DNA of 42,856 bases. It comes from an uncultured Verrucomicrobia subdivision 3 bacterium. GTDB lineage: Bacteria > Verrucomicrobiota > Verrucomicrobiia > Limisphaerales > UBA11358. Positions 1,817 through 19,900 of this stretch are shown piece by piece. Both the position numbers and the translations under genes were made by a program. A model generated the notes under the pieces. It was given only the letters and a program-made list of their open reading frames with translations, did not search any database and was not told the origin of the DNA. Numbering within the stretch: position 1 is the stretch's first letter; each line of letters starts with the position of its first letter. The stretch covers positions 1 through 42,856 of the forward strand of contig CAIKKJ010000043.1 in the NCBI GenBank assembly GCA_903827955.1. Direction: 5' to 3'.

Positions 1817-2401
1817 TCAAATTTTACCAATGATTTCAACAATCTGGCGACGGGATGCATCCGGCAAGCCTTCCGTCCAGACCACAAAATGGGCACGCGC
1901 CAGTTTTGCTTCCACCGGCAGTTGCGCGGCCAGGCGACGGGCCATATCTACCGGCGACCAACCGCGCGCAGCCAGCCGTTCGCGCTGGGAAGCGGGCGAA
2001 CAGGCGACGCAGATGATTTTGTCAAAGGCATGCTCCGCCTGCGTCTCGAACAATAACGGAATGACCACCACGGCGAGCGGGCAACCTTCGCTGCGCCACG
2101 CCGCGACCTGCGACTGCCAGCGTTCGCGGATGCGCGGATGCAAAATGGCCTCGAGTTTTTTGCGGGCGGCTTCGTCGTTAAAAACAACGTCGGCGAGCGC
2201 CCGGCGATTCAGCGAGCCATCGGCGGCGAGAATTTTTTGGCCGAATTCCTTTTCAATCTCCGCGAGCGCGGGCTGCCCGGGGCGGACGAGGTCGTGTGCG
2301 ATTTCGTCGGTGTCGGTGACGCGCGCGCCAAGCTGCAACAGAAAACCGGCGGCGGTGGATTTGCCCATCCCCACGCCGCCGGTCAAGCCAACGAGTTTCA
2401 T
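1817..2401 (-). CDS. coaE: Dephospho-CoA kinase
   Basis: CoaE phosphorylates the 3'-hydroxyl of dephospho-CoA, the last step of coenzyme A synthesis, in the cytoplasm. The P-loop is near the N-terminus (GLTGGVGMGKST), followed by DTDEIAHDLV (the conserved D-D region), HPRIRERW, VVVIPLLFE and CSPASQRERLAARGW, all typical of the family; length (194 residues) is normal. I prefer ATG at 2401, because MKLVGLTGG is the usual N-terminus. A TTG at 2410 would add three residues and overlap the upstream stop. The sedolisin stop is only 5 bases upstream, so coaE depends on translational coupling or read-through from the surface-protein genes, an odd setting for a housekeeping gene. Confidence 0.95.
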   Translation of the reverse strand: MKLVGLTGGVGMGKSTAAGFLLQLGARVTDTDEIAHDLVRPGQPALAEIEKEFGQKILAADGSLNRRALADVVFNDEAARKKLEAILHPRIRERWQSQVAAWRSEGCPLAVVVIPLLFETQAEHAFDKIICVACSPASQRERLAARGWSPVDMARRLAAQLPVEAKLARAHFVVWTEGLPDASRRQIVEIIGKI

Positions 2402-2406
2402 TTCAA

Positions 2407-4917
2407 TCAAGGGCCGGTGACGGCGCGATAGAAGCGATACGGATAATTGGTGGAGTTGGAATCCGTGAACGAGAACGGCGAGACGTTCGTATAAATCGGA
2501 ACCCAGTTGAACAAATTGGTGGATGCCTGAATGATCACGCTCGTGCCGGGCGCGCCGGAAAGGTTGAAGGTGAACTGGCCCAACACATTGTTCGTGACCG
2601 TGAACACCGGCGGACTGACCACGCCGACGGTGATGGCGGTGGCAACGACGTCATCGTCCTGATTCGGATCATAGGTCGTGGAACCGACACTCGGGTAGTT
2701 GAGATATGTGCCGGCAGTGACTGCGGCAAAATTCAAGGTCAATTTGCCACCGGCATTGACGGCGAGATTGCCGAGCGTCCAAGTGAGCGTGGCCCCAACG
2801 CGGCTGACCGTGCCGAGGGTGGTATTGGACGAGGTCAGCGAAACGCCGGTGCCGGGCAGCGTGTCCGTCACGTAAACATTGGTCGCAATCGACGGTCCGT
2901 AGTTGGTGACGCAAAGCGTGAGGCTAAAGTTGGTGCCGGGCGCAACGAAGATGTTGGTCGCGGAGGCATAAATCTGGCTGTCCGCCGCGTAGCCGACGGG
3001 GTTGGCGGTGGTAAGCGTGACCGACCAGCCGTTGTTGATCATGCCGACGTCCAGTGCCTTGTCGTCCTGGATGAAGAGGAACCAGTCACCGTTCGGGTTG
3101 CTGCCGTTGATCGCGGAAAGCGTGCTGCCCCAGGGCGCGATTGGTGCCGAGATGATGACGTTGGCATTGCCGCCCCCACCGTTGGTCAAAACGCCGGTGG
3201 CGGCTAGCGCGTTGATGAGGTTCGTGCCTTGCGGCGTGCCCCAACCGGTCGCCAGATCATAACCGGGAACCGCGGGAAAATTCGCGGGGCTTTGCGACCA
3301 GGTGTTGTTGCCGATGGTGATGTCGTAAAAATAATTGGTGTAGCTTGCGCTCTTGCCGAGCGTGTAAAGCGCCGGGTTGAGGAAGCCGATGGCCGAACGT
3401 CCGTTCAAGCTGGCCTGCTGGTTGACGAGCGCCATGAAGCCGGCCCACAGCGGCGAGGCGCAACTGGTTCCGCCGAAATTTTGCTCAACCCCATTCACCA
3501 CCACATCCACGTTATCACCCGTCATCGCCACGTCGGGCAGGCTGCGGAAGGTCGTAGATCCCAAGTTGGTGGCCATATTCATGCCCTGCTGCCAAGTCGG
3601 AATGGGATAGTAACCGCTGATGCCGCCGCTGCTGCCGATGCCATCCAAATTGACCGGGTCAAGTAAACCCCAGTTCCAAACTTTTTCCGACGTGCGCGCA
3701 CCGCCGGGCCCGGCAGTTGAAAGCGTGGTGCCGCCGACCTGCGTGATATACGGGTTGTCGGACGGCGCATTGAAAGAATTCGGGTCGTCCACGGAACCGG
3801 GTGCGGAACCGGAAGCGCCCGGCGGCAGAAAAGCATCCACATCGCCGGAAGCATCAAAGAAGGTCTGCCCCTGCAAAATCATCTGGATGAAAATCTGGTC
3901 AATGGTTCCGTTCGGCCCGCCGGTCCAACCCCACGAGCAGCTAATCTGGCGCGCGGCATTGTCGGTAGCGATGCGATTCAGGACGATAACGGGATTGAAC
4001 TGGTTCGGGTCGCCTTCGTAAACCATGACCTGGCTCAGACCGGGCGCCATGGCAACTGCCATCTCGATGTCCAGCGTCACCTCATCCTGAAAACTGGTGT
4101 AGACCGGAAATCCGGAAAATCCTTGTAGCAATATGTTGGTAAGCGCCACCGTCGGCAAACCGGCGCGGGATTCATACAAAGCGATGTCGCTGGCGAGATA
4201 ACCGTCGAACTGGACGAGCGCCACTTTTTGACCCGCACCCGTCAGCGTGGTGCCGGCGGCGTAGGCGGCGCGAAAGTCATTGCCGCGATAGGAACCAAAC
4301 GGGCCGGAACCATTCTTGACCGTTGCCGCTGTCACTTTGGCGGTCGGGGTTTTGATGCGGGTGTGCGGGCGGGAATAATTATTCAGGCCGCCGATATCGA
4401 GCACGGAAAGATTCGCCGGCACGGAAGGCTCCTTGTCCGGGGCAAAAAACTGGCGGCCTTCCGTGGGATGATTATAGGTGCGAAAGCTCACGTTGAAGGC
4501 GCGTTCAACATTCGTCGCCGCCGCATCCACTTCAACGAGCATGCGGTTGGAATGACGGGCGGAAATGGCGAAGCCGTTGGCCTGCGCGTAATTCACCACG
4601 GCCTGATAATCCGACTCCGTCGGGCCGAACTGCGCGGTGAATTCATCCGCACTCAAGAAATGATGGTAATTCGGACTGGCCGGATCATGGCTTTGCGCGA
4701 GCAGCGCCTTCAAACCGTCCTGATTACGCAGCGGCAGACCGATGGCGAGGTGCAACTGGTTCGTGCCCGCCAGCCGTCCGGTCGAGGTCAATACCGAAAC
4801 TACCTTTGGCACGTGGCCGGACAACGTCGTCGTGCCCGTGACCACCGCACCGGCCTGGCTGGCGAGGCCGACCGCCGCCAGCACTGCGAGGCTCATCTTG
4901 AAAAATGTCTTGCTCAT
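2407..4917 (-). CDS. Sedolisin-family (S53) serine-carboxyl peptidase with half P-like domain and DUF11-like C-terminus
   Basis: An 836-residue exported protease. Signal peptide about 1-25. Residues 40-185 are a pro-kumamolisin activation domain (LLAQSHDPASPNYHHFLSAD). The catalytic domain has E279 and D283 (DEVTLDIEMA), the oxyanion Asp D359 (FFDASGD) and S485 (GGTSCASPLWAG), with a calcium-loop end near 530-560 (GYDLATGWGTPQG). So the catalytic set is complete and an active acid-type endopeptidase is expected outside the cytoplasm. After residue 588 comes only the second half of a P-like domain (APIAPWGSTLSAINGSNPNG to NNGWSVTLTT), then a DUF11-like domain (about 655-770) and a terminal ASTNLFNWVPIYTN module. 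The missing first half of the P-like domain is the C-terminus of the upstream giant gene, 31 bases away. RBS GAGAG at 4923-4927 supports the start. Confidence 0.92.
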   Translation of the reverse strand: MSKTFFKMSLAVLAAVGLASQAGAVVTGTTTLSGHVPKVVSVLTSTGRLAGTNQLHLAIGLPLRNQDGLKALLAQSHDPASPNYHHFLSADEFTAQFGPTESDYQAVVNYAQANGFAISARHSNRMLVEVDAAATNVERAFNVSFRTYNHPTEGRQFFAPDKEPSVPANLSVLDIGGLNNYSRPHTRIKTPTAKVTAATVKNGSGPFGSYRGNDFRAAYAAGTTLTGAGQKVALVQFDGYLASDIALYESRAGLPTVALTNILLQGFSGFPVYTSFQDEVTLDIEMAVAMAPGLSQVMVYEGDPNQFNPVIVLNRIATDNAARQISCSWGWTGGPNGTIDQIFIQMILQGQTFFDASGDVDAFLPPGASGSAPGSVDDPNSFNAPSDNPYITQVGGTTLSTAGPGGARTSEKVWNWGLLDPVNLDGIGSSGGISGYYPIPTWQQGMNMATNLGSTTFRSLPDVAMTGDNVDVVVNGVEQNFGGTSCASPLWAGFMALVNQQASLNGRSAIGFLNPALYTLGKSASYTNYFYDITIGNNTWSQSPANFPAVPGYDLATGWGTPQGTNLINALAATGVLTNGGGGNANVIISAPIAPWGSTLSAINGSNPNGDWFLFIQDDKALDVGMINNGWSVTLTTANPVGYAADSQIYASATNIFVAPGTNFSLTLCVTNYGPSIATNVYVTDTLPGTGVSLTSSNTTLGTVSRVGATLTWTLGNLAVNAGGKLTLNFAAVTAGTYLNYPSVGSTTYDPNQDDDVVATAITVGVVSPPVFTVTNNVLGQFTFNLSGAPGTSVIIQASTNLFNWVPIYTNVSPFSFTDSNSTNYPYRFYRAVTGP

Positions 4918-4922
4918 AAAAT

Positions 4923-4927
4923 CTCTC
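4923..4927 (-). promoter_or_regulatory. Ribosome binding site of the sedolisin gene
   Basis: GAGAG on the minus strand lies five bases before the ATG at 4917, inside the 31-base gap after the giant gene. It gives the protease independent translation initiation, in a frame different from the giant gene. Confidence 0.7.
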
Positions 4928-4948
4928 GTTCAAAGTTTCGCCGCGGCA

Positions 4949-7900
4949 TCAGGGGAAATTCCGCACCGGCAAAATCGCCGAGGGTTTGTTCGTGCCCGTC
5001 ACCGCCGCACCGCCGTGCGTCATGGTGTTGGTCGCCGCGTCGTCAAAAGTCAGCACCACGTTGGTGACGTAGCTCTGGCCGCCGACATGCGCCATGACCA
5101 GCGTGTTCAAGCCGGACGGCGCGACGACCAGCGCGTCCACGTCAGACGGCGAGGTGTGCACCAGGCGGTTCAAAGTGACCGTGGCCTTGACCAGCGAGCC
5201 ACCGACGCCCGTGACATTGATGATGGACGGATACGGCGAGGCGTTGGTGTTGTCGTTGATGATGATCGCCGCGCTGTTGCTCCAGCTGGTGGTGTAAGTG
5301 CCGAGCGTGTAGCCAAAGATCGCCGTGCCGATCTTGTTGTTCGTGTTGTTCTCAAACAGGTTGAACGTGGCGGTAATCTGCTGGTTGTTCGTGCCGTGCG
5401 CGGTGAACGTGAACGGGCGTGAGACGGAGTGGCCGCGATAGATGAGCGGGCCGTAGTTCGTAGTGGCCGGTGCGGCCGGCGTGACGCCATTGGTGTTCAG
5501 CAGCGTGGCGATGAGGTTGTTCACGTTCGTGCCGCCGGCATCGCGGAAGGCGAACAGGAGCGTGACCGTGTCATTGGAACCGATGACGCCGTTCGTGTAG
5601 TTCACCAGCGAAGAGAAGTTGGTGACCATCTGCGATCCGGCCGGAATCACGTAACTGCCGGTGTCATCATGGATAGTCAGCGTGGCGGCGCTCGGCGAAA
5701 TGAGCGTGCCGTTGACCGCGCCGGACAATTGCAGCAGCACGGTGAGGTCGGGCTGGACCACCGTGGTGTCATTCACCGGCACAGCGAACGACTGACTGGT
5801 CACGCCGTTGCTGAAGGTGAGCGTGCCGCTGACGGCGGTGAAGTTCAGGCCGTTGACCGCCGTGCCGTTGGTGGCAGTGTAATTGACAGTGGAGGTGACG
5901 TTGGTGTTGTCCGTGCGCACCACCGTGATGTTCGCCGCGCCGCCGCTCTTGGCGATGGTGTAAGTCAGGGCGGAGAATTTCAGGCCGGTGTTGCTGTCAA
6001 TGATGGTGATCGTGGCCGTGCTCGGGGCGATGAGGACGCCGGGCGCGGTCGGATTCGTCAGGATGACGGAGAAGGCCTTGTCGCCCGCCACCGCGCCGTT
6101 GTTGATGATCGGCACGGAGAAATAATTCGTGCCGGTGCCATTCGTAAATGTCAGCGTGCCGGTGACGGCGCTGTAATCCGTGCCAGCCAGCGCCGTGCCG
6201 TTGGCAGTGAAGTAATTCACGGAGAGCGGAACGGTGTTGGAGTTCACGATCACCGGCTCAACGTTGGTGTTTGCACACACGACCGCCACCAAAATGCTGC
6301 CGGCGTTCTTGGCCACGCTCAGTGCGGAGTTCGTGAAGCTCAAGCCCGCTTCCGCATCGGTGATCTGAACGACCGTCGAACTCGGCGAACCAATCTGAAC
6401 AGACAGACCGGGGTTCGAGAGGTTGACGGTGAAGTTCACCGTGCCGTTGTAATTCGTGTTATGCAGCAGCGTCACGGCAATCGTCTTCGACGCCTCGCCG
6501 GGGTTGAAGGTCAGCGTGCCGCTGGCGGCGGTGTAGTTGGCGTTCGAGAGAGCCGTGCCGTTGGCCGTGGCGTATTTCACCGTGGACGTGCCGTTGGTGT
6601 TATTATAGCGCGTCACGGTGACCGGAACGGCACCGGCCGTTTCCGCGAACGTGTTGGTCGCCAGTGCGAACGCCACCACCACGTTGGTGTTGATGATCGT
6701 CAAAATTGCGTTGGTCGGGTTGATGAGCGAGGCACCGCCGGTCGGGGTGGCCAACTGCACCGTGAGATTGACCGGGCCGGTGGCGACGTTGTTGGCGAGC
6801 AACGGCACGGTAAACGTGGCGTTGGTCTGACCGTCGTTGAAGGTGACCGTGCCGGTGACCGGTGTGTAGTTCACGCCCGGTGCGGCGGTTCCTGGCAGCG
6901 TCGAGTAACCGACCGAGACGTTGCCGGAATTGCCGCTGCCACGGATGACGGTGATGGTGGCGTTGCCGGCATTGGCATTGGCGCTGAAGTTCGTCGCCGC
7001 AAAGCTCAACTGGCCGGGCGCGACCACCGTGTCAATGATGGTCAGGGTCGTGTTGGTCGGCTGCGCGAACAGCGAGTTGACAACATTGCTCATACCGAAC
7101 ACCACGGTGCGGTTGCCCTGCGGCAACAAGTTGTTGATGATCGGAACTTGCACAACGAGATCCGTCTGGCCAGCGGCAAAGGTGACCAGCACGTTCGTCG
7201 CGTAATAATCAATGTTCGTCACCGCCGTGCCGTTCGTGGCCGTGTAAACGTTCACCGAGCAACTACCGCTCGCGGAACCCTGGCGCAGGACGTGCACCGT
7301 GCCGAAGCCGGTCAGGATGTTTTTCGGCACCGAGTAGCTCGCCGAGCCGAAGCTCACGCCGCTGTCATCGTTGATGATGGTCAACAGCGCGTTCGCCTGA
7401 TCGCCGAGGCCGGCGGGCGGGGTCGGGCTGGACAAGGCCAGGTTCACCGTCAAATCCGGCGTGGCGTTCGAGTCGTCACGCACCGGCACGGAGATAAATT
7501 TCAACACTTCACCCGGCGGGAACAGAATGGTCTGGCTCACATTGGTGTAATTCACATTTGGCACGGCCGTGCCGGCCAACGTGGCGAAATTCACCGAGAC
7601 CGAGCCGGAACCGTCCGCGTTCGTGCCGCTCGTGCCGCCCACGCGGCGGACGCCGATGATGGCCTGCACACCGTTTTCATCCACCTGATAATTCGCAGCG
7701 GTGAAGGTGAACTGGCCGGAGCCGGTCGTCGAGCCGCCGTAGATGCGGGCGATGTGGTTGTTCGGCTGGTCGTTGTATTGCGTGAAGCTGCCGCCGATGA
7801 CGATCATCTGATCCGCCGGCTGGATGACCACGGCGTTGACCGCGCCGTTGGCACCGTCGCCGAAATTGATGGTCGGATCCACCACGCCGCTGGACAACAG

Positions 7901-10900
7901 GCGCGTGATGCGGTTGCGGGTCACGCCGTTGGCCGTGGTGAACTGGCCGACGACCACGATGCGGTTGTCCGTCTGGATAGTCAGCGCGCTGACCGTGGCG
8001 TTGGCACCCAGGCCGAGCCCCGTAGTGAAGGCTGAATCCAACGTGCCGTTATTATTCAAGCGGGCAATGTGATTCAAAGCCACGCCGTTGAAATTGGTGA
8101 AGTCACCACCGACGACCACCTTGCCGTCGCTCTGGATGGCGAGCGAGCGGACGATATCGCCGGCACCCGCCGCGATATTCAGGTTGAAAGTGGCGTCCAG
8201 CGAGCCGTCCGCGTTCAAGCGGGCGATGTGACCGGCAGCCGTGTTGTTCACGTTCGTGAACGCACCACCGATAAGCACCTTGCCCGCGAACACCGAGTTG
8301 GTCGGATACACCGCCACGGCATACACGGTTGCGTTCGGACCGGAGCCGGTGTTGAAAGTGGAATCCACCGTGCCATTGTTGTTCAACCGCGCGACGAACG
8401 CACTTGCAATGCCGTTCATGCGGCCGAAGGAACCGGCTGCGTAAATCTTGCGGTTGCCACCGATGAATGTTTCCGCGATGGAATACACCGTGCCATCCGC
8501 GCCGGCGCCCGGATTGAAGCTGCTGTCCAGCGAGCCGTCCGTGTTGAGGCGGGCGATGTGGTTGAGAATCGTGCCGTTGAAATTCGTGAACGTGCCGCCG
8601 ACGAGCAACTGGTCGTCGCTCTGGTTGACGAGCGCATACACCGCGCCGCTCGCCCCGGACAGGCCGTAGAGGAAGCCGGAGCGATCCAACGTGCCATCGG
8701 TGTTCAGGCGGGCGAGATAATTTTCCGGCACGCCGTTGACGATGGTGAAGTTACCACCGGCAATGATCTTGCCGCTTGATTGCAAGGCCAGCGCATAAAC
8801 ATCCGCATTCATGCCCGCACCGGTGTTGAACGACGTATCGGGCGAACCCGGCGGACGGTTGTAGCTCAAGGCATCCACGATGTAATTGTTGGCCGCGGTC
8901 AACGCGCCGAGCGTAGCCCCGGCGCTCGGAGCCGACAGGGCGACGGTGAAGAAGAACGCATTGGCCGGCGGATTCACCACGCCGTCATTCAAGATCGGAA
9001 TGTTAATCGTGGCGGCAAGCTGGCCGGGCGTGAACGACAGCGTCCCGTTCGTGCCAATGTAATTGGTCGCGGCAAAGGCCGTCGCATCGGCCGTCGCAAA
9101 GTGAACGGTGGCCGAGCCGTTCGTGCCGCCGGTGCGGATAACGGTGACGGTCGAGTAACCGCCGTTTTCATTCACGAGATAGGTCGGCGAACTGAACTGG
9201 AACGAGCCGTAGCTGTTGTCGTTGTTGATGAACACGGTGGCGTTCGTCGTGCCGTTCGCCGCAAAGAGCGACGGCGTGCTGACCGCGTTCAGGGTCGGAT
9301 TATAAAGCGCGATGCCGAACTGTTTGCCCGCACCAATGACACCGCTGTTGAGCAGCGGGATGGTGATGGTGCGCGGGGTAACGTCGCCATTGTTCCACGT
9401 TAGCGTGTTGGTGAAGCCGATGTAATCCACGCCGTTGATGGCTGTGCCGTTGGTCGAGGCGCACTGAACGGTGAGCGTGCCTTTGCTACCGACGTTGCGC
9501 GTGACGGTGATGGTGGCCGTGCCGGCGCTCAGGTTCGCCGGATAGGAGTTGGTCGTCAGGTTGACAAAGCCTTGGAAGTTCGGGTTGATGATGCGCAACA
9601 CGGCGTTGGTGGTGCCGAGCGCGGCGAGGCCGTTGACCGGCGGGTTGAGGCCGAACAGGTTCAGGTTGACCAGTTTTTCCGTCGCGCTGATGGAGTTCGT
9701 GTTCAGGATAACGACGTTGAATGTGTGGTTCGTGTCCGAAGGCTGGAAGGTCATCGTGCCGCTGCTGGCAAGATAGTCGCTGTTCAAGATCGCCGTGCTG
9801 CCGTTCGTTGTGGTTGTGTAACTCAAATACACGATGCCATAACTGCCGTTGGTGCGCGCGACGGAGATGGTCGCGCTCTGACCGTTGCCGATGAAGTTCG
9901 CCGAGGCAAAACCAAACGTGCCGGAGTTATGATGGTCGTCAATGATGGTGAACGGCGCAATGGATTCGCCCAGCGCGACGCCGAGCGGAACGTTTTCACC
10001 ACCGAGGTAGAATTGGTCGGCGTCCACAGGATTTGCCAGTTGGAATTGCGCAGTCAGATTATTGAACGAGTTGGTTGTTTCAAAAATGTTGACCAGCACG
10101 GATTGCTCGGTTTGGCCAGAGATGAACCGACCATACACGTCATAGACATAACCATTCGTGCCCGCAAAGCCGTCGCTGTGCATGCGACCATCAGGCAACA
10201 AGAAGTAACTCCAGGAAATCCAATAGAGCGGATTGAAACCAGCGTAATTGTAGTCCTGCCCGCTTTGCGCGAGGCCGGACAAAACCGAGAAGGCGGCGGA
10301 TGCTGGTCCAAGGCTGCCGTTGGTGCGAACCAAGCTGACATACATCGGCGACTGGCTCTTGTTGATGGAGTAACTGCTGTTCAAAAGGGCGATGTTGCCC
10401 GGTCCAGGCGTCGCGCCGCCAATCAATCGAGCGATGTTGCTGCGATTGCGAATGCCATTGCGAGTTTTTTGAGCGAGTGCAAACCCGCCGTTGTTGCCGG
10501 AGAAGGTGCTGAAGGCAAGCAGGACGTTGTTGGTGTCTGTGCTTTCCGGACGCACCTCTACGTCATCCGACTGGCCGCCGCCAACCCGCCCGAAGCTGCC
10601 GGCAATCATCACGTTGCCGTCGCTTTGAAGCGCAGACGCGAGCACGGTGCCGACCGGGTCGCTGTAGCGCAACCGCGGCAAGCCAGCGAACTGGTTATAA
10701 GCCGTGTCCAGGAAGGTGGTGTCCACCGTGCCATCCGCATTCAAACGCGTGAAGCCCAGACGCCGCGTGCCGTTGAAGCTGTTGAATCCGCCGCCGACGT
10801 ATATGGTAAAGTTCGTCTGAACCACAAGTGATTTGTTGGTGGTTGAGAAAATCTGGTTGGTGGCAACGGTGATGTTATAAACTGGGCCATCCACGCCGAC

Positions 10901-13900
10901 GCCGGCAAAGAATTGCGGGTCGGTAAAGCCGTTGGCCGTGATACGGGCGATGTTGTTCGCCGCCGCGCCGTTGAATTGCGAGAACTGGCCGCCAATCAAA
11001 ACCTTGCCATCGGGTTGGACGCCGATTGTGAATACCGACGCGTTGGCACCGGACCCCGGATCAAAGCTCGGGTCAAACGAGCCATCCGGATTCAGCCGGG
11101 CGAGGTGGTCCTGGCCACTGATGCCGCCGACAGCCACGAAGTCACCACCAATGACAACCTGACCGCTCGACTGAACGCCAATGGCATAGACCGCCGCGTT
11201 CAAGTTCGTGCCGGGGTCAAAGGAAGTGTCAAGCGAACCATCCGCTTTGAGCAAAGCGAGGTAACGACGCGCGGTTCCGTTGTAGGAAGTGAAATCACCG
11301 CCGACGAGCAACTCACCATTAGTTTGGAACGCGAGCGAATAAACCGTGCCGTTGAAACCAAGTCCGGGGTTGAAGGCGTTATCCAACGTGCCGTTAGTGG
11401 TGACCAGTGCGATGCCGTTGCGCAGGACGCCGTTGTAGGATGAGAACGCGCCGCCGATGAACGATTCATAGTTCGCGTTCAGCGCGATGCAATTGATGAA
11501 GTTGTTCGGGCCGGAGCCGGGGTTGAATGAACCGTCGAGCGAACCATCCGGATTGGCGCGGGCGATATAGTTGCGCCCCGCCTGATCGTAGGTGAAAAAG
11601 TCGCCGACGAGAATCGTTTTGTCATCTGGTTGGATGGCGAGGCCGAGAACTTCGCCGTCCGTGCCCGGGTGGCTCATCTGCGGCGGTGAGGTCGGAACCG
11701 GTCCGGCCATGTTGTAGCTGAAATCGGCGTTGTGATATTCGTCCACGGAACCCGCTGGCGGATGATTGTCGTCGGACAAAATTGTCACCGTGGTCTGGTC
11801 AATCATGCCCACGGGATGCGTTCCACCGTTGGAATCTTCTTCGTAAAGACTGATGGTGAAGTCTTCGTTGAACTGCTGCAGGCCGTTGTTATTGACGGAG
11901 AACGTAATCGCCTGCGGGTCAAAAGCCCCGTTGCCAGCTGGGAAGCTGATGGTGCCGCTGTAATTGCCATTGAAGTCAAAGTCCGGCACGAGGCCATTGA
12001 TATTTCCTGCGACCACCGGCGTGGGCGTGGCGTAATCAGAACCGGGTTGCAGCGGGAAGTAACCATTTCGCTCATCGGCACCGTTGCGTTGCAGGTAGTA
12101 ATTGTTCACGCGCCAATGAATTGTCGGCGAAGCGGCGTTGTTGGTGCCGGTGCGGACTACGTAAAGTGTAATCGGCGTCGAGCCCCAGAAATCCGAGATG
12201 TCGCGGGTGACGCGGTAATGCGCCTTCTGGAAGTTATAAACGCCATTGGTCGGCAAGTTTGAAACAATGTTATTGGTAACAGCAACATTGGTCGGTTGCA
12301 GCGTAATCGGGTCAATAAAGTTTGTGAAGGACACTACTTGACGGTAGGTCGAACCTTGCGGGTTGACATCGGCGTCGAGAATCCGCACCAGCGCGGTGCT
12401 GAAAGTGTTGTCCAGACGCGGCGGCTGCACGAAGTTACCTTCACTCGCATCCAGCACGGCATTGGTCAACTGGATGAAGAAGCAACGGTTTGGCTGCGCC
12501 GCTATGCCATCGTCAATTACTGGAACGAAAATGGTCTTCGTCATTTCCGTATCATCAAAGGTCAGCACCCCGCTGACCGGCGTGTAATCGATGCTGGCTC
12601 TCGCCACCACATCCCCGTTGAAGAGATTTCCATCAGCTCCCAGCAAGGTTGAATTGGCCGGAACGTCTGCCGTGGTGTAGCCGACTTTCACACGGCCGGT
12701 GGAACCAGCGACGCGGGTGACTGAAACCAGCAGGCCCGGAACATCAAAGATGTATTGGAATTTATTATTTCCCAGGAACATCGTGCCGTTGTAGGTAGTG
12801 AGTTGCTGGTTGGCAGTGCCAGAGTAAGGTCCACGATGACGGCGACTGCCTTCGGTTTCGGCCACCTTGTAAAGCAACATGGGAATTCCGTTGGAGTAGT
12901 TCAACCCGCTCATGTCCACCTGCTCGGTGGCGAACCGGAACACGCCCGACGGGTGCAGCGCCCAACTCAATTTCACCTGCCCGCCATAAGGACTGTAGGT
13001 AGTGCTAAAAGAATTGATGCTAGAAGAATTGGCAAAATTACGAAAATCAAATGCAGTGACATAACTCAGGAGCGAAGAGGAAGTCTGAACTTTGATATAA
13101 TATGTCTTACCAGCCGTAGCATTGAAACGCACCTGACTCGGACCAGCAAACGGTTGAATATAGCTGCCCGAAAAGGAATAGGCATAGGGTATGCCGTTGG
13201 TGTTACCGCCGAAGCCACCGCCAAAACCGCCACCCAATCCGGAAATAATTGCATTCGTATTGTAGACGTTTTGGCCGTCGTAGTTCTGCTGATAGTTCGG
13301 ATAACTTTGCAGGAAGTTCGGATAGATGCCGGCATTCGCCGCCACTTGGTTGAGCGTGGAAAAGTTTGTGCCGGTATAAACGGTCATGATCGTGGACAAA
13401 TTGGTCACGCCGATCACGTCATCGACGCTGCCAATCGTATCCACCTCCACCACGCCGCTGTTCGTGGGCGTCCAAGCAAACCAAGCCGGGGTAGATCCAA
13501 AAACTCCGAGGTTGTTATCCACGGTGGAAGAACCCCAGTCGCCGTTCATCGTGATGGGGCTGAAATAATTCAGGCCGAGCGGTGTGTTGGTCTCGATGAT
13601 GGTGACGGTTTCAACATACGGCACGGAGAGCACGCCGGGCGCCGTCGGACTGGACAAGGTAACGTTGAACGTCTGGTTGCTCTGCACCAAGCTGTTCGGC
13701 AGGATGGGAATTTGGATGAAACTAAACGCCTGGCCGTTGGTGAAGACGAGCGTGCCGCTGGTCGGGGTGTAGTCCACACCGGCCGCCGCCGTGCCGCCGC
13801 CGGTGGCGTAGTTCACGGAGACCGGACCGAGCGAGGGATTGGAATTGAGCACCGGCAGAATGGCGTAAATACCCGTCTTCAACACACTGGTCGCCGGGCT

Positions 13901-16900
13901 GAAGAAACTCAAGCCGGCCTCGGCATCCAGCAACTGGATAACCGTCGTGCTGGGCGCGGTCAATTGCGCACCAGAACCGGGGTTGGAAAGATTCATGGTG
14001 AACGACAGCGTGCCGGTCACATTGGTGTTGTGCAGCAGCGGCACGGGAATGGTCTTGACCGACTCACCCGGATTAAACATCAACGTGCCAGCGGTCACGG
14101 TGTAGTTCAGATTGGAGGTCGCCGTGCCATCTGCCGTAGCGTAATCCACCGTGGAAGTGACGTTCGTGTTATTGAACCGGACCACGCTGATGAACACCGT
14201 GTCTTGCGTTCCGAAATAAACGATGCCGCCGGTCTCGGAGAACGTGTTCGTGGCCGAGGCAAAGGCCAGGCCGACGTTCGTGTTGATGATGGTCAAGGTG
14301 GCATTGGTCGGCGTCAGCAAGGTTGCCCCGCCGCCGACATTGGTCAGACCGAGGTTCAAATACTGCGGTCCTTCCGCCGTGGCCGTGTTGACGACTTTCA
14401 CCACAAACGACTTGGTCGTTTCACCATCGCCAAAGGACAACGTGCCGTTGGTGGCAACGTATTTGGTGCCGACGGTGGCCGTGCCGTCCGCGGTGAAATA
14501 TTTTACCGACACCACGCCAGCGGAACCGAACGAGCGCTGCACGGTGATGGTGGCGTTGGTGTAGCCCACGCCGCCGCCTTCGGTGATGTTGTAATTGGTG
14601 GCGGTGAAACTCAACTGGCCGGGGGCGTTGACGGTGTCAATGATGGTCAGCACGGCGTTGGACGGAGCGTAAAGCGCCGAACCAGACACGCTGGAAAGCT
14701 GCAGGTTTACCGTGCGGTTGCCTTGAGGAATGCCGTTGTTGTTGATGGGAATGGTGACCAGGGCGTTGGAAATCCCGGGCGCAAACGTCACGGTGGCGGG
14801 ACCGACCGGAGTATAATCCGTGCCGGGGGAGGCCGTGCCGCCGAGCGTGGTGGCAAAGGTCACCGTGGAAGTGCCGCTCGTGCTACCAAGACGCTTGACG
14901 TTGATGGACGCCACACCGTTGATGACGTTCTTCGGAACGGTGTAGGTTGCGGCGGAGAAATTGATGGCGCTGTCGTCATTGACAATGGTCAGCGTGGCGG
15001 TCGGCTGGTTGCCGATCTGCGAATTCACCAGCGGGTTCAAGGTCAGGTTGGCGACCAAGTTGGAAGTGATTACGTTATCATCCATCACCGGGATGAAAAC
15101 GGACTGAACCACTTCACCCACGGGGAAAACCAGGTTGGTGACCACACTGGCATAATTTACGCCCGCAAAGGCCGAACCGTCGCTGGTGGTGAAGGGAACC
15201 AGGACATCGCTCGTGCCGGCGGCATTGGTGCCGCTGGTGCCGCCGTTGCGGATGACGGTGATCACGGCATTGGTGCCGCGTTCATTCACCTGATAGTCGA
15301 CGGCGGAGAATTCAAATTCGCCGGAGCCGCTGGTGGAGCCGCCGTTAATGCGGGCGAGATACGGATGCGACTTGCCGTTATATTGCGTGAAGCCACCACC
15401 GATGATGATTTTTTCATCCGGCACATTCGTCGGATAGCCAAAGATGGTGTCCTGCTGGATAACCATGGCCGCCACGAAGCTGTTCGCGCCGGTGCCGAAG
15501 TTGATGGTGGGATCCACCGTGCCGTCGGGATTTAGGCGGGTGATGCGGCTGCGGGTGACGCCGCTGCAATGGGTGAACTCGCCACCGAGCATGATGCGCT
15601 GGTCGCTTTGCAAGGCGATGCTGAACACCGCGTCATTTGCGCCAACACCCGGCGTGAACGTGCCGTCCACGCTGCCGCTGGTGGTCAGACGGGCAATGTG
15701 ATTCAACGCCACACCGTTCACGTTGGTGAACAGACCGCCGATCAAAATGTTGCCGTCCGGCTGGATGGCCAGGGCGCGCACCGAGGCGCTGGCACCAGTG
15801 CCCGGATTGAACGTGGTATCCACCGAGCCGTCCGTGTTCAGACGCGCGATGTGATTGCAATTCGTGTTGCCGTTGACGGTGGTAAAATCACCACCGATGA
15901 CCACCTTGCCATCCGTCGGCTGCACGGCGAGCGCATAGACCGTGGCGTTCGCGCCGACACCAGGATTGAAAGTGCTGTCCAGCGTGCCGTCGTTGTTCAA
16001 ACGGGCGATGCAATTGATGGTGCCGCCGGCGAGGGTCGCAAAACTGCCGCCGACCATCAGCTTGCTCAAGCTGCCGACAAATGTTTCCTGCAAGGCATAG
16101 ACCGGGTTATCCGCGCCGGAACCGGGGTTGAACAGGCTGTCAATCGTGCCGTCGTAATTGATACGGGTGATGCGGCGGGCGGCGATGCTGTTGAAGTTGG
16201 TAAAGAAGCCGCCGAGCACGATGCGGCCGTCCGATTGGATGGTAATCGCCCGCACAGAACCGTTGGCGCCGTAGACCGACGAAGGCAGCGAGAACTTGGT
16301 GTCCAGCGAGCCGTCCGCATTCAAGCGCGCGATGCGCTGGCGCGGCACGCCGTTGGCCTGCGTGAAATCACCACCGACCAGCAGCTTGTTGTTGGACTGC
16401 AAGGCCAGGGCATAAACCGAATTGTTGAAACCAGTGCTGTTGTAAGTGACATCTTCGGAACCGGGCGGTTCGTTCACCGCCGCGCTGTCAATGATGTTCA
16501 ACGTGGCCGTGCTGGGGCTGCCGAGGATGCCAGGAATCGGCGTCGGTGTGTCCAACACCACGGTCAAGGATAGCAATCCATCCACGGTGCCATCATCAAT
16601 GATCGGCACGGTGATAAACTTGCTAACTTCACCCACATTGAAGGTAAGCGTATTATTGGTGGCGACAAAGTTCAAGTTACCCGCGCTGGAAGCGGATCCA
16701 TCCACGGTATGATAATTGACGGTCACGGACTGCGAGCTGCCGCCGACCCGCAAGACGGGGATCAACGCAAAGCCGCCGTATTTTTTCACGGAATAAACGG
16801 GCGAGCTGAACTGCACTTGACCATAGGAATCTGTGTTCAGAATATTCAGCACAGCATTGGTTCCGCCAAAGGACAGAGGCGTGGCGTTGACAAGATTCTT

Positions 16901-19900
16901 GACCAGAGAATTGGTCAGGCGCAGGTTGACTGTCCAATCGCTGGTGACCAAGCCATCAGCAATCACGGGCACCACGATGTTCCGCGCCGTGGCGTCGCCG
17001 CTGTTCCAACTCAACACATTCGTGGAGCCGGTATAATTCACGCCGTTGACCGCCGTCCCGCCGGCGATGATAACGGTGACACCCATCGTCTGGCTGCTGC
17101 CGCCGACGCGGTTGACCGTGATGATGGCCGAGCCGGCATTTTCATTGGCGCTGTAAGTAGCCGATGAGAAGCGCAAATGACCGGAAGCGTAATTGTCGTT
17201 GATGATGGTCAGCGTGGCGTTCGTCTGACCGAGCGTGGCACCGCCGGTGACATTGAACAAGGTCAGCTTGACCGTGCGATCCGGCTGAACCGTCACCCCG
17301 TTGATAAGCGGAATCGTGAAGCTCTGGGTGGTGACGCCGCCGGCGAAGCTGAGCGTGTTGGTCACGCCGCGATAATCAATCTGGTTTGTGGCCGTGCCGT
17401 TGGCGGTCTTGTATTTCACGGTCACGATGCCGTCGCTGCCATTGGTGCGGACAACCGTGATGACGGCGTTCGTCTGGTTTTCCACGACGGTGTAAGCGAT
17501 GGAACTGAAACCCAGCACGCCAGAGCGGACATTGTCATCAATGATGGTCAGCGGGGCGCTGGACTGCGAACCGAGCGCGGCACCAAGCGGAATATTTTCA
17601 CCACCGAGGAAGAAGACGTCCGTGCCATTGGGCTTGGTCACAACCACATTGGCGGTCAGGTTGCCAGTGATGTTAGTGTTGTTGATGATGTTTACTTTGA
17701 CATCAGCCGCTGTAGAAGTTAACGGCGTCGTTGCATAATTCGGACCATACAATCCAAAGTCATACATCCAAGCAGTATTCCAAGCCGTTCCCCAAGTCGG
17801 ATTACGGTAAGCTGCGGCCAGTGAGAAGCTTAATTCTGGAACGGCTACACCAGGCCCCGGGTCGGCCGTGTTGGTGGTAAACGTGGCGGATATTATCCCC
17901 AAATTTCCATTTGTGCGAACGAGTGAAATGTAAGTTGGCCCGGCATTTTCATCCGCCGAATAGCTGCTATAGGACAACTGGATGTTACCCGGTCCCGGTG
18001 TGCCGTTGCCGATCAAGCGGGCAACGTTACTCCGCGGCAGGATGTCGTCGCGGGTAGTTCCGCCGCCAATACGAAGAAAGCCACCGCCAACCAGAACATT
18101 TCCACCCGCCTCCAATGCAATGGCATAAACATAGTTCCGCTGGTTGCCCTGCGGATACAAGGCGGTATTCAATACGTTATTATCGAAGTAATGATTGACC
18201 AGGCCAGCGAACTGATTGTAGGCCGTGTCCATGAAGCTGGTGTCTACCGTGCCGTCGCTAAACAGCCGGGCCAGACCAATGCGGCGGGTCTGGTTAAACA
18301 TTTGAAAGTTACCACCAATAAGGATGGCACCATCCGGTTGTAGGGTGAGCGTGTAGATTGTATCGGCAAATTCGGAAACAGAGTTGTAAGTTCCCGTGCC
18401 GGAATTGAAGGTCGTATCCACCGTGCCGTCGGTATTCAAGCGCGCCAGACCATTGGCGGTGTTCAAATCAAGATAGGAGAATCCGCCGCCGATCAAAACC
18501 TGGCCGTTCGCTTGCAACGCAATGGAATAAATCGGGTCGGTGCTGCCCGTGGTCGGATTGTAAGTGCCGATGCCCGGGTTGAAGGTGCTGTCCAGGGAAC
18601 CATCCACGTTCAAGCGGGCAACGCCGCCGGCGTTAATGCCGGCCACGATATCAAAGTCGCCGCCGATGAGGACGCGGCCGCTGGAATCAACCGCCACGGT
18701 ATTGACCGTGCCGTTCGGGCCGGTGCCGGGATTGAAACTGGTATCCACCGAGCCATCGCTATTCAGACGCGCAACGCCCACCACGTTGTTCGTGTTAAAG
18801 GTGGAAAATTCCCCGCCGATGACCAGTTGACCGTTTGATTGCAAAGCGACCGACCAGATCATGCCATTGGCACCGAAGCCGGGGTTGAAGGTGGCATCCA
18901 AGGTTCCATCCGTGTTCAAGCGCGCGATGTGCGCGCGGCTGTTGCCGTTGAAGGAAGTGAAGTTACCCGCGATGATAATTTTGCCATCCGGCTGCAGGGC
19001 AAGTGACGCAATGAAGTCATTCGCACCAGTGTTAGGCGAGGCCAGGAAGGTGGTGTCTTGATAACCATTGGGCAACACGCGCACGATGCGATTGTAAGCA
19101 TGCGAGTCGAACGAGATGAAACTGCCGGCAAGAATGGCCTTGCCATCCGGCTGCTCGGCGATGGCGTAGACCGTGCCGCCGTTACCATTCGCGCCGTCGC
19201 TCGTGCCGCCGGACGTGCCAGGGTATTGCAGGAAGGGCGGATTTGAACCAGGGTTGTTATGCTGGTTCCACGTCCGATCTCCACTACCAGCCGACTCGTC
19301 ATTGAATAGAATCGTCAGTGTTGCGCTAGTAATCTCACCCAAAACCGCCCCTCTCCACGGAGGAGTTCCGCTGGCACTAAACGTAAGCGGGGCATTGGCG
19401 TTAGATAGTTGTAGGTTAATGTCCTCATTAAATTCTACTATCCCATCGTTATTTATCGGAATTATAATCGGCACAGCCGTCACCCCGGCACCAAATGTCA
19501 ACGTGCCGCTAATCTGTGTAAAATCGCTGTTGATAGTGGCGTAATCTGAACCGGGCTGCAAAGGGAATGTATTTACCGGATTATACTGACCAAACGGAGG
19601 AGGTAAATCCATGGAGTAATCCACCGTGACGCTCTGATCAAGCCCGCCACTTCGCGTGACATAGATGACCGCATTTCCTCCCGCTACATTTTCATTAACC
19701 CGGAAGCGTGCCCGCTCAAAATTAAATACCGAGGCTGAATTCAAAACCGGAAATCTACTGCTCAAAACGCTAATTATGGCATTTGTTCCCGCAGCCAAAG
19801 TTGGTGGCACCAAATCCGTGGTCTCCAATGTGTCCAGCCTTGGATTCAGCAAGGTTACTGTCAATGTCGTCGGCAGACCGGGCACAGCCACTGCATCCGG

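Follow-up and report, generated by a model that had tools for sequence, protein, structure and literature searches.

Fold completion, or a dedicated pair of modules able to carry different enzymes, joins two polypeptides in donor-strand complementation, split inteins and cohesin-dockerin. In the RTX adhesins FrhA and MpIBP, a ligand-binding or other domain lies in a loop of a split Ig-like domain (PMC10865825). Our literature searches found no description of a protease system built on a split P domain such as the one reported here. We analyzed a stretch of 42,856 nucleotides from an uncultured Verrucomicrobia subdivision 3 bacterium (hereafter the window), where a giant secreted protein and the protease encoded next to it each carry part of one P domain. 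We consider it probable that these parts form a natural two-chain split domain, which docks an exchangeable secreted protease and the giant's former tail onto the giant. The pairing of the two halves is inferred from indirect evidence and not shown.

One P domain in two adjacent genes

The features of the locus, in the direction of transcription, are as follows.

4949..21148, reverse strand: giant secreted protein gene, 5,399 aa (ORF, Pfam, NCBIfam)
5261..5656, reverse strand: Ig-like domain immediately N-terminal to the P domain of the giant (several strands in the AlphaFold model, confidence 61-91)
4952..5260, reverse strand: P domain half 1, C-terminus of the giant, 103 aa (alignment with intact domains)
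3148..4951, reverse strand: inserted segment, 1,804 bp (not present at the same position in intact loci)
4918..4948, reverse strand: spacer, 31 nt, with a GAGAG ribosome-binding site before the ATG (sequence)
2407..4917, reverse strand: sedolisin gene, 836 aa (Pfam; match to kumamolisin 1t1e)
3199..4290, reverse strand: S53 catalytic domain, residues 210-573 (kumamolisin alignment; DEVTLDIEM and GGTSCASP motifs)
3007..3147, reverse strand: P domain half 2, 47 aa (Pfam P_proprotein 48-85; alignment with other split and intact loci)
2641..2967, reverse strand: DUF11 domain, once part of the giant's tail (Pfam, 57.9 bits; after the P domain in intact giants)
2410..2631, reverse strand: C-terminal domain, ~70 aa (own-genome matches at protein ends)
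1817..2401, reverse strand: coaE, anchor for locus orthology (directly downstream in split and intact loci)

The giant protein begins with a signal peptide, as read from the sequence, and is made up of Calx-beta and delta-60 (DUF5122) repeats (Pfam, NCBIfam). Its C-terminal end is ...TNKPSAILPVRNFP, followed by a TGA stop codon at 4951-4949. The last residues before this stop, also given as ...GTNKPSAILPVRNFP, end in ...PVRNFP, which falls inside a P domain of the furin/Kex2 type. The sedolisin gene starts 31 nt past the stop and begins with a signal peptide of its own. The segment at 3148..4951 holds the stop codon, the spacer with its ribosome-binding site, the signal peptide, the propeptide, the catalytic domain and a Gly-rich linker. 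Junctions similar to the GAGAGATTTTATGAGCAAGA type were seen at related loci.

The sedolisin gene encodes, in order, a signal peptide, a pro-kumamolisin propeptide, an S53 catalytic domain, a linker, P half 2, a DUF11 domain and a C-terminal domain. The Pro-kumamolisin activation domain (PF09286) scored 111.7 bits against a cut-off of 23.5, and residues 31-573, which cover propeptide and catalytic domain, aligned with kumamolisin 1t1e (E 1.7e-47). The catalytic Glu, Asp and Ser are in conserved motifs, with DEVTLDIEM corresponding to GEVELDIEV of kumamolisin and GGTSCASP to the Ser loop, where the solved chain 1t1e has Ala. Judged by these matches, the second gene is a complete S53 sedolisin; its acid protease activity is inferred.

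Behind the catalytic domain and the Gly-rich linker follows APIAPWGS...NNGWSVTLTT and then DUF11; APIAPWGSTLSAINGSNPNGDWFLFIQDDKALDVGMINNGWSVTLTT stands after the linker, before DUF11 and the ~70-aa C-terminal domain. Half 2 matches only positions 48-85 of the 86-position P_proprotein profile, a weak match (E 0.2) of the kind that a fragment should give. Against a cut-off of 21 bits, PF01483 gave 27.1 for the intact domain of G036, 18.9 for the joined halves of the window and 12.2 for half 2 in its own protein. An earlier note on this DNA had described a giant that ends in the first half of a P domain and a second half in the next gene, after a sedolisin catalytic domain. The open reading frames, the partial Pfam match and the same split in about 30 genomes bear out this description.

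The ~70-aa C-terminal domain also ends other proteins of the source genome and may, by inference, be a sorting signal. The source genome (G000) encodes another giant on contig C23 (L005, L007, L010-L014), a 4,891-aa open frame with many DUF11-like repeats.

The P domain of an intact congener was modelled by AlphaFold with a pLDDT of 93. In this model the cut site corresponds to a long loop, which comes after strands 65-73 and 90-92 and before strands 126-134, 141-143 and 147-154. Sequence searches with the joined domain and the intact profile found no relative among PDB chains, whereas a fold search with the intact congener domain identified the P domains of Kex2 and furin as the best solved relatives, both with Z near 11 and rmsd near 2 (Kex2 P domain: Z 11.3, rmsd 2.0, 112 residues). 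In a model of half 1 of the window with the preceding Ig-like domain, confidence was 35-67 for half 1 and 61-91 for the Ig-like domain. The low confidence of half 1 would be compatible with a fragment that needs a partner, with the caveat that it may partly reflect a shallower alignment.

Intact relatives and the direction of insertion

All named relatives appear to be metagenome-assembled genomes (Limisphaerales / Verrucomicrobia subdivision 3). In G036, G035 and G084, which represent other genera of the order, the Calx-beta, Ig-like, P, DUF11 and C-terminal domains lie in one open frame, and the Ig-like domain ahead of the P domain is conserved in split and intact relatives. The earlier note had proposed that joining LPVRNFP to SAPIAPWGS restores a normal domain. 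The same arrangement was found uninterrupted, NFP joined to APIAPWG reading ...AVNFPAPAPAGPYATNL... in G036 and ...SLPFPAPAPALP... in G035. DUF11 and the C-terminal domain follow the P domain in intact giants, which agrees with their proposed origin as the giant's natural tail. In an order-wide scan of 146 genomes, matches that span the junction were all in one frame outside the genus, except in G098. The proposal would have been refuted if homologous giants normally ended at this point, but those outside the genus run on, bar G098.

The intact giant is directly followed by coaE in G173, which is the only congener among these genomes, and in G084, G036, G035, G042, G032, G121 and G046, which represent several other families. 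No sedolisin lies behind the intact giants at this locus. At split loci, coaE is directly downstream of the protease gene where the contig reaches that far, and the orthology of intact and split loci rests on this position beside coaE. Since the P domain is in one frame in relatives and empty sites exist beside coaE, the ~1.8 kb is best read as an insertion into the P-domain loop of the giant gene, and locus comparison gives its direction. The inserted stretch, predicted to run from 4951 to about 3150, measured 4951-3148. The search of the locus in close relatives and for uninterrupted relatives, which the earlier note had suggested as a check, thus yielded intact giants, including that of the congener G173.

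In three loci from other families (L203 5890-9849, L205 5807-9055 and L220 5805-9773), a sedolisin gene of more than 1,000 aa without half 2 begins 17-37 nt after an intact giant. These tandem loci are not adjacent to coaE. Giant and sedolisin genes therefore occur side by side without a split as well.

Distribution, constraint and exchange of the protease

The split was present in 30 of the 49 genomes of the genus, including three (G010, G175 and G180) whose contigs stop inside the locus, and the intact domain in only one (G173). All giant C-termini that were read stop at one and the same alignment column (FP, or FH in G181), but the linker ahead of half 2 differs between split loci in both length and sequence. 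This distribution indicates that the split is old and common to most of the genus. The insertion proposed in the earlier note is thus supported, but it was no isolated event, and what lies between the halves need not be a sedolisin (G176 and G098, see below).

The placement of the intact G173 was not firmly resolved by the P-domain tree, the rpoB tree or a concatenation. A single clade of all split rows was not rejected (AU p 0.36, 0.50 and 0.23 for P-domain, rpoB and concatenation, respectively). In the rpoB tree the G006 and G007 rows were in wrong reading frames, and rows for the concatenation were filtered by motif. The trees therefore allow either one insertion after G173 diverged or an early insertion that G173 later lost.

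The P halves occur together or are lost together. In eleven congeners the giant is missing together with the half-2 protease, with coaE and the genes upstream of the locus retained. Apart from cut contigs, no genome with only one half was found in the genus scan or among these giant-less congeners. Nor did we find an orphan half in other sedolisins; many sedolisins carrying this half domain without a partner would have spoken against the earlier proposal.

Other remnants and rearrangements were seen at the coaE locus. In G133 (L282 10042-11019), an N-terminal remnant of the giant lies directly before coaE, and neither the remainder of the giant nor the sedolisin is left. In G171 (L280 7349-11365), G022 and G023 (L278 and L279), the giant is lost and a different sedolisin of ~1,335 aa, without P half 2, precedes coaE. 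Over its last 60 residues the G171 sedolisin is almost identical to the C-terminal end of the intact G173 giant, and this resemblance suggests an exchange of tails. Short P-domain proteins of G022 and G023 were ruled out as orphan halves, as they form a separate intact family at another locus. L148 (3088-3951) and L149 (2287-3144) each encode a secreted protein of ~285 aa that has a single intact P domain; their locus is conserved and lies close to a threonine-synthase-like gene.

To quantify conservation, we took 22 intact P domains as reference and scored both halves of 28 split loci at the 19 positions invariant in the reference. Of 532 cells, 517 (97%) were unchanged. Mean identity among split rows was 0.57 for half 1, 0.61 for half 2, 0.54 for the Ig-like domain, 0.44 for DUF11 and 0.45 for the tail, compared to 0.49, 0.55, 0.48, 0.37 and 0.40 among intact rows. 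The P halves are therefore the most conserved segments of the region, as they are in intact domains. The differences cluster at third codon positions, and all parts of the split locus are under purifying selection.

In G176 and G098, a signal peptide and a reprolysin-like zinc metalloprotease (Reprolysin_3) stand between the halves, and there is no sedolisin. The G176 metzincin has the motif HEVGHNLGLHH (pattern HExxHxxGxxH) and scored 26.9 bits against a cut-off of 22.4. The G098 protease (HEVGHNLNLHH, with N for G) scored 21.1 bits, slightly short of the same cut-off, and comes from a 3.9-kb contig of an assembly that is 73% complete. In a 36-row tree built from the sequences that flank the payload on the half 1 and half 2 sides, G176 was sister to the sedolisin bearer G177 with support of 100/99, deep among sedolisin bearers, and the rpoB proteins of the two are 98% identical. 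Their DNA can be aligned well up to and including the stop that closes half 1, the alignment weakens over spacer and signal peptide, and beyond that the two sequences diverge; half 2 is homologous again after the divergent payload. Constraint tests on the tree rejected grouping the two zinc-protease rows together (p 0.004) and grouping all sedolisin rows together (p 0.0002). The tree and alignments clearly indicate that in G176 the protease was exchanged while the split domain stayed. In a comparison across 320 genomes of the order, the protease parts of G176 and G098 are closer to each other (62%) than to any of the rest (≤51%), which suggests that a zinc-protease cassette moved between split loci. 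By these comparisons an unrelated enzyme has taken the place of the protease on at least one occasion, a conclusion that rests on two metagenome-assembled genomes.

A putative docking module and its alternatives

The following course of events would best account for these results. A secreted-protease cassette, consisting of a stop, ribosome-binding site, signal peptide, protease and flexible linker, would have entered the gene of a giant secreted repeat protein, in the long inter-strand loop of its P domain and close to the C-terminus of the protein. From that point on, two adjacent genes would have supplied the P domain as separate polypeptides. The signal peptides on both proteins and the adjacency of their genes mean that the chains can meet during or after export. 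After secretion, the halves would most likely assemble non-covalently into one P domain, docking the protease on the giant through the flexible linker and returning DUF11 and the C-terminal tail to it. As the protease between the halves is exchangeable, the split domain would work as a docking module.

A gene break inside a folding domain is usually destructive. Here it was kept through divergence to ~50% identity, under strong constraint and with its payload exchanged. Taken together, the age of the split, the strict conservation of both halves and the protease exchange suggest that the two pieces still pair and keep the protease attached to the giant. The split itself, the insertion's direction, the conservation and co-occurrence of the halves and the protease exchange were observed, but physical pairing, surface display and enzyme activity are inferred. 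Pairing has strong indirect support but no direct binding evidence. Whether this amounts to a system in which a protease cassette at the split site is automatically displayed on a giant surface scaffold, and in which the scaffold needs the enzyme chain to regain its C-terminal tail, we regard as evenly balanced. If the halves pair, the locus provides a natural split-domain docking module and candidate tool for enzyme display, and a testable case of an insertion turning one protein into an obligate two-protein machine.

The halves may instead pair only for delivery or maturation, with the protease cleaving itself at the Gly-rich linker or trimming the giant, so that half 2, DUF11 and the tail stay docked and the protease is released. 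S53 enzymes process themselves, the linker between catalytic domain and half 2 is flexible and variable, and the intact giants with unsplit sedolisins (L203, L205 and L220) fit a functional link without tethering. However, a zinc protease of a different family in the same place makes an essential, specific cleavage site in the linker less likely, and we consider release unlikely. It is also conceivable that the halves do not pair, with half 1 capping the giant's Ig-like domain, half 2 forming a spacer before DUF11 and each under a constraint of its own. There is no demonstration of binding, and the conservation, taken by itself, could stem from a different function in each half. Separate functions are harder to reconcile with core residues of one fold kept at 97% in both pieces, a cut end that never moves, the lack of any genome with one half alone and a half 1 that is not confidently modelled by itself; we find this very unlikely.

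Other alternatives concern how the split arose. A tandem giant-sedolisin pair could have been rearranged, rather than a cassette inserted, possibly with the same present function. The three tandem loci, where a sedolisin gene directly follows an intact giant, speak for this, but they are not beside coaE, their sedolisins lack half 2, two precise deletions would be needed and intact giants at the coaE locus have no sedolisin behind them. We consider rearrangement quite unlikely, although it is not ruled out by these data. One might also suspect an assembly artefact or a pseudogene in decay, because the relatives found all appear metagenome-assembled; the same arrangement in about 30 genomes and purifying selection on all parts have already refuted this. 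Stop read-through or a programmed frameshift giving one whole protein was rejected, since the insert has its own signal peptide and propeptide.

The docking arrangement we favor resembles the RTX adhesins FrhA and MpIBP in that a guest domain lies in a loop of a beta-sandwich domain of a giant surface protein, the adhesin host holding its guest outward (PMC10865825). Those adhesins are one polypeptide throughout, whereas the guest here is a protease whose insertion introduced a stop, a ribosome-binding site and a signal peptide and so left the host domain in two proteins. Kumamolisin (S53) shares the propeptide and catalytic domain with the window sedolisin, but in its solved chain the catalytic domain is not followed by a P half, DUF11 or a tail. 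Furin and Kex2 share the P-domain fold, and there too the P domain accompanies a serine protease. In these enzymes, however, an undivided P domain comes after a subtilisin-type protease on a single chain, whereas here it is divided between two chains and the protease is of the S53 or metzincin type. Finally, in contrast to donor-strand complementation, split inteins and cohesin-dockerin, the module that would do the joining here is a P domain interrupted by the gene whose product it would dock, with no strand exchange between repeated subunits and no splicing.
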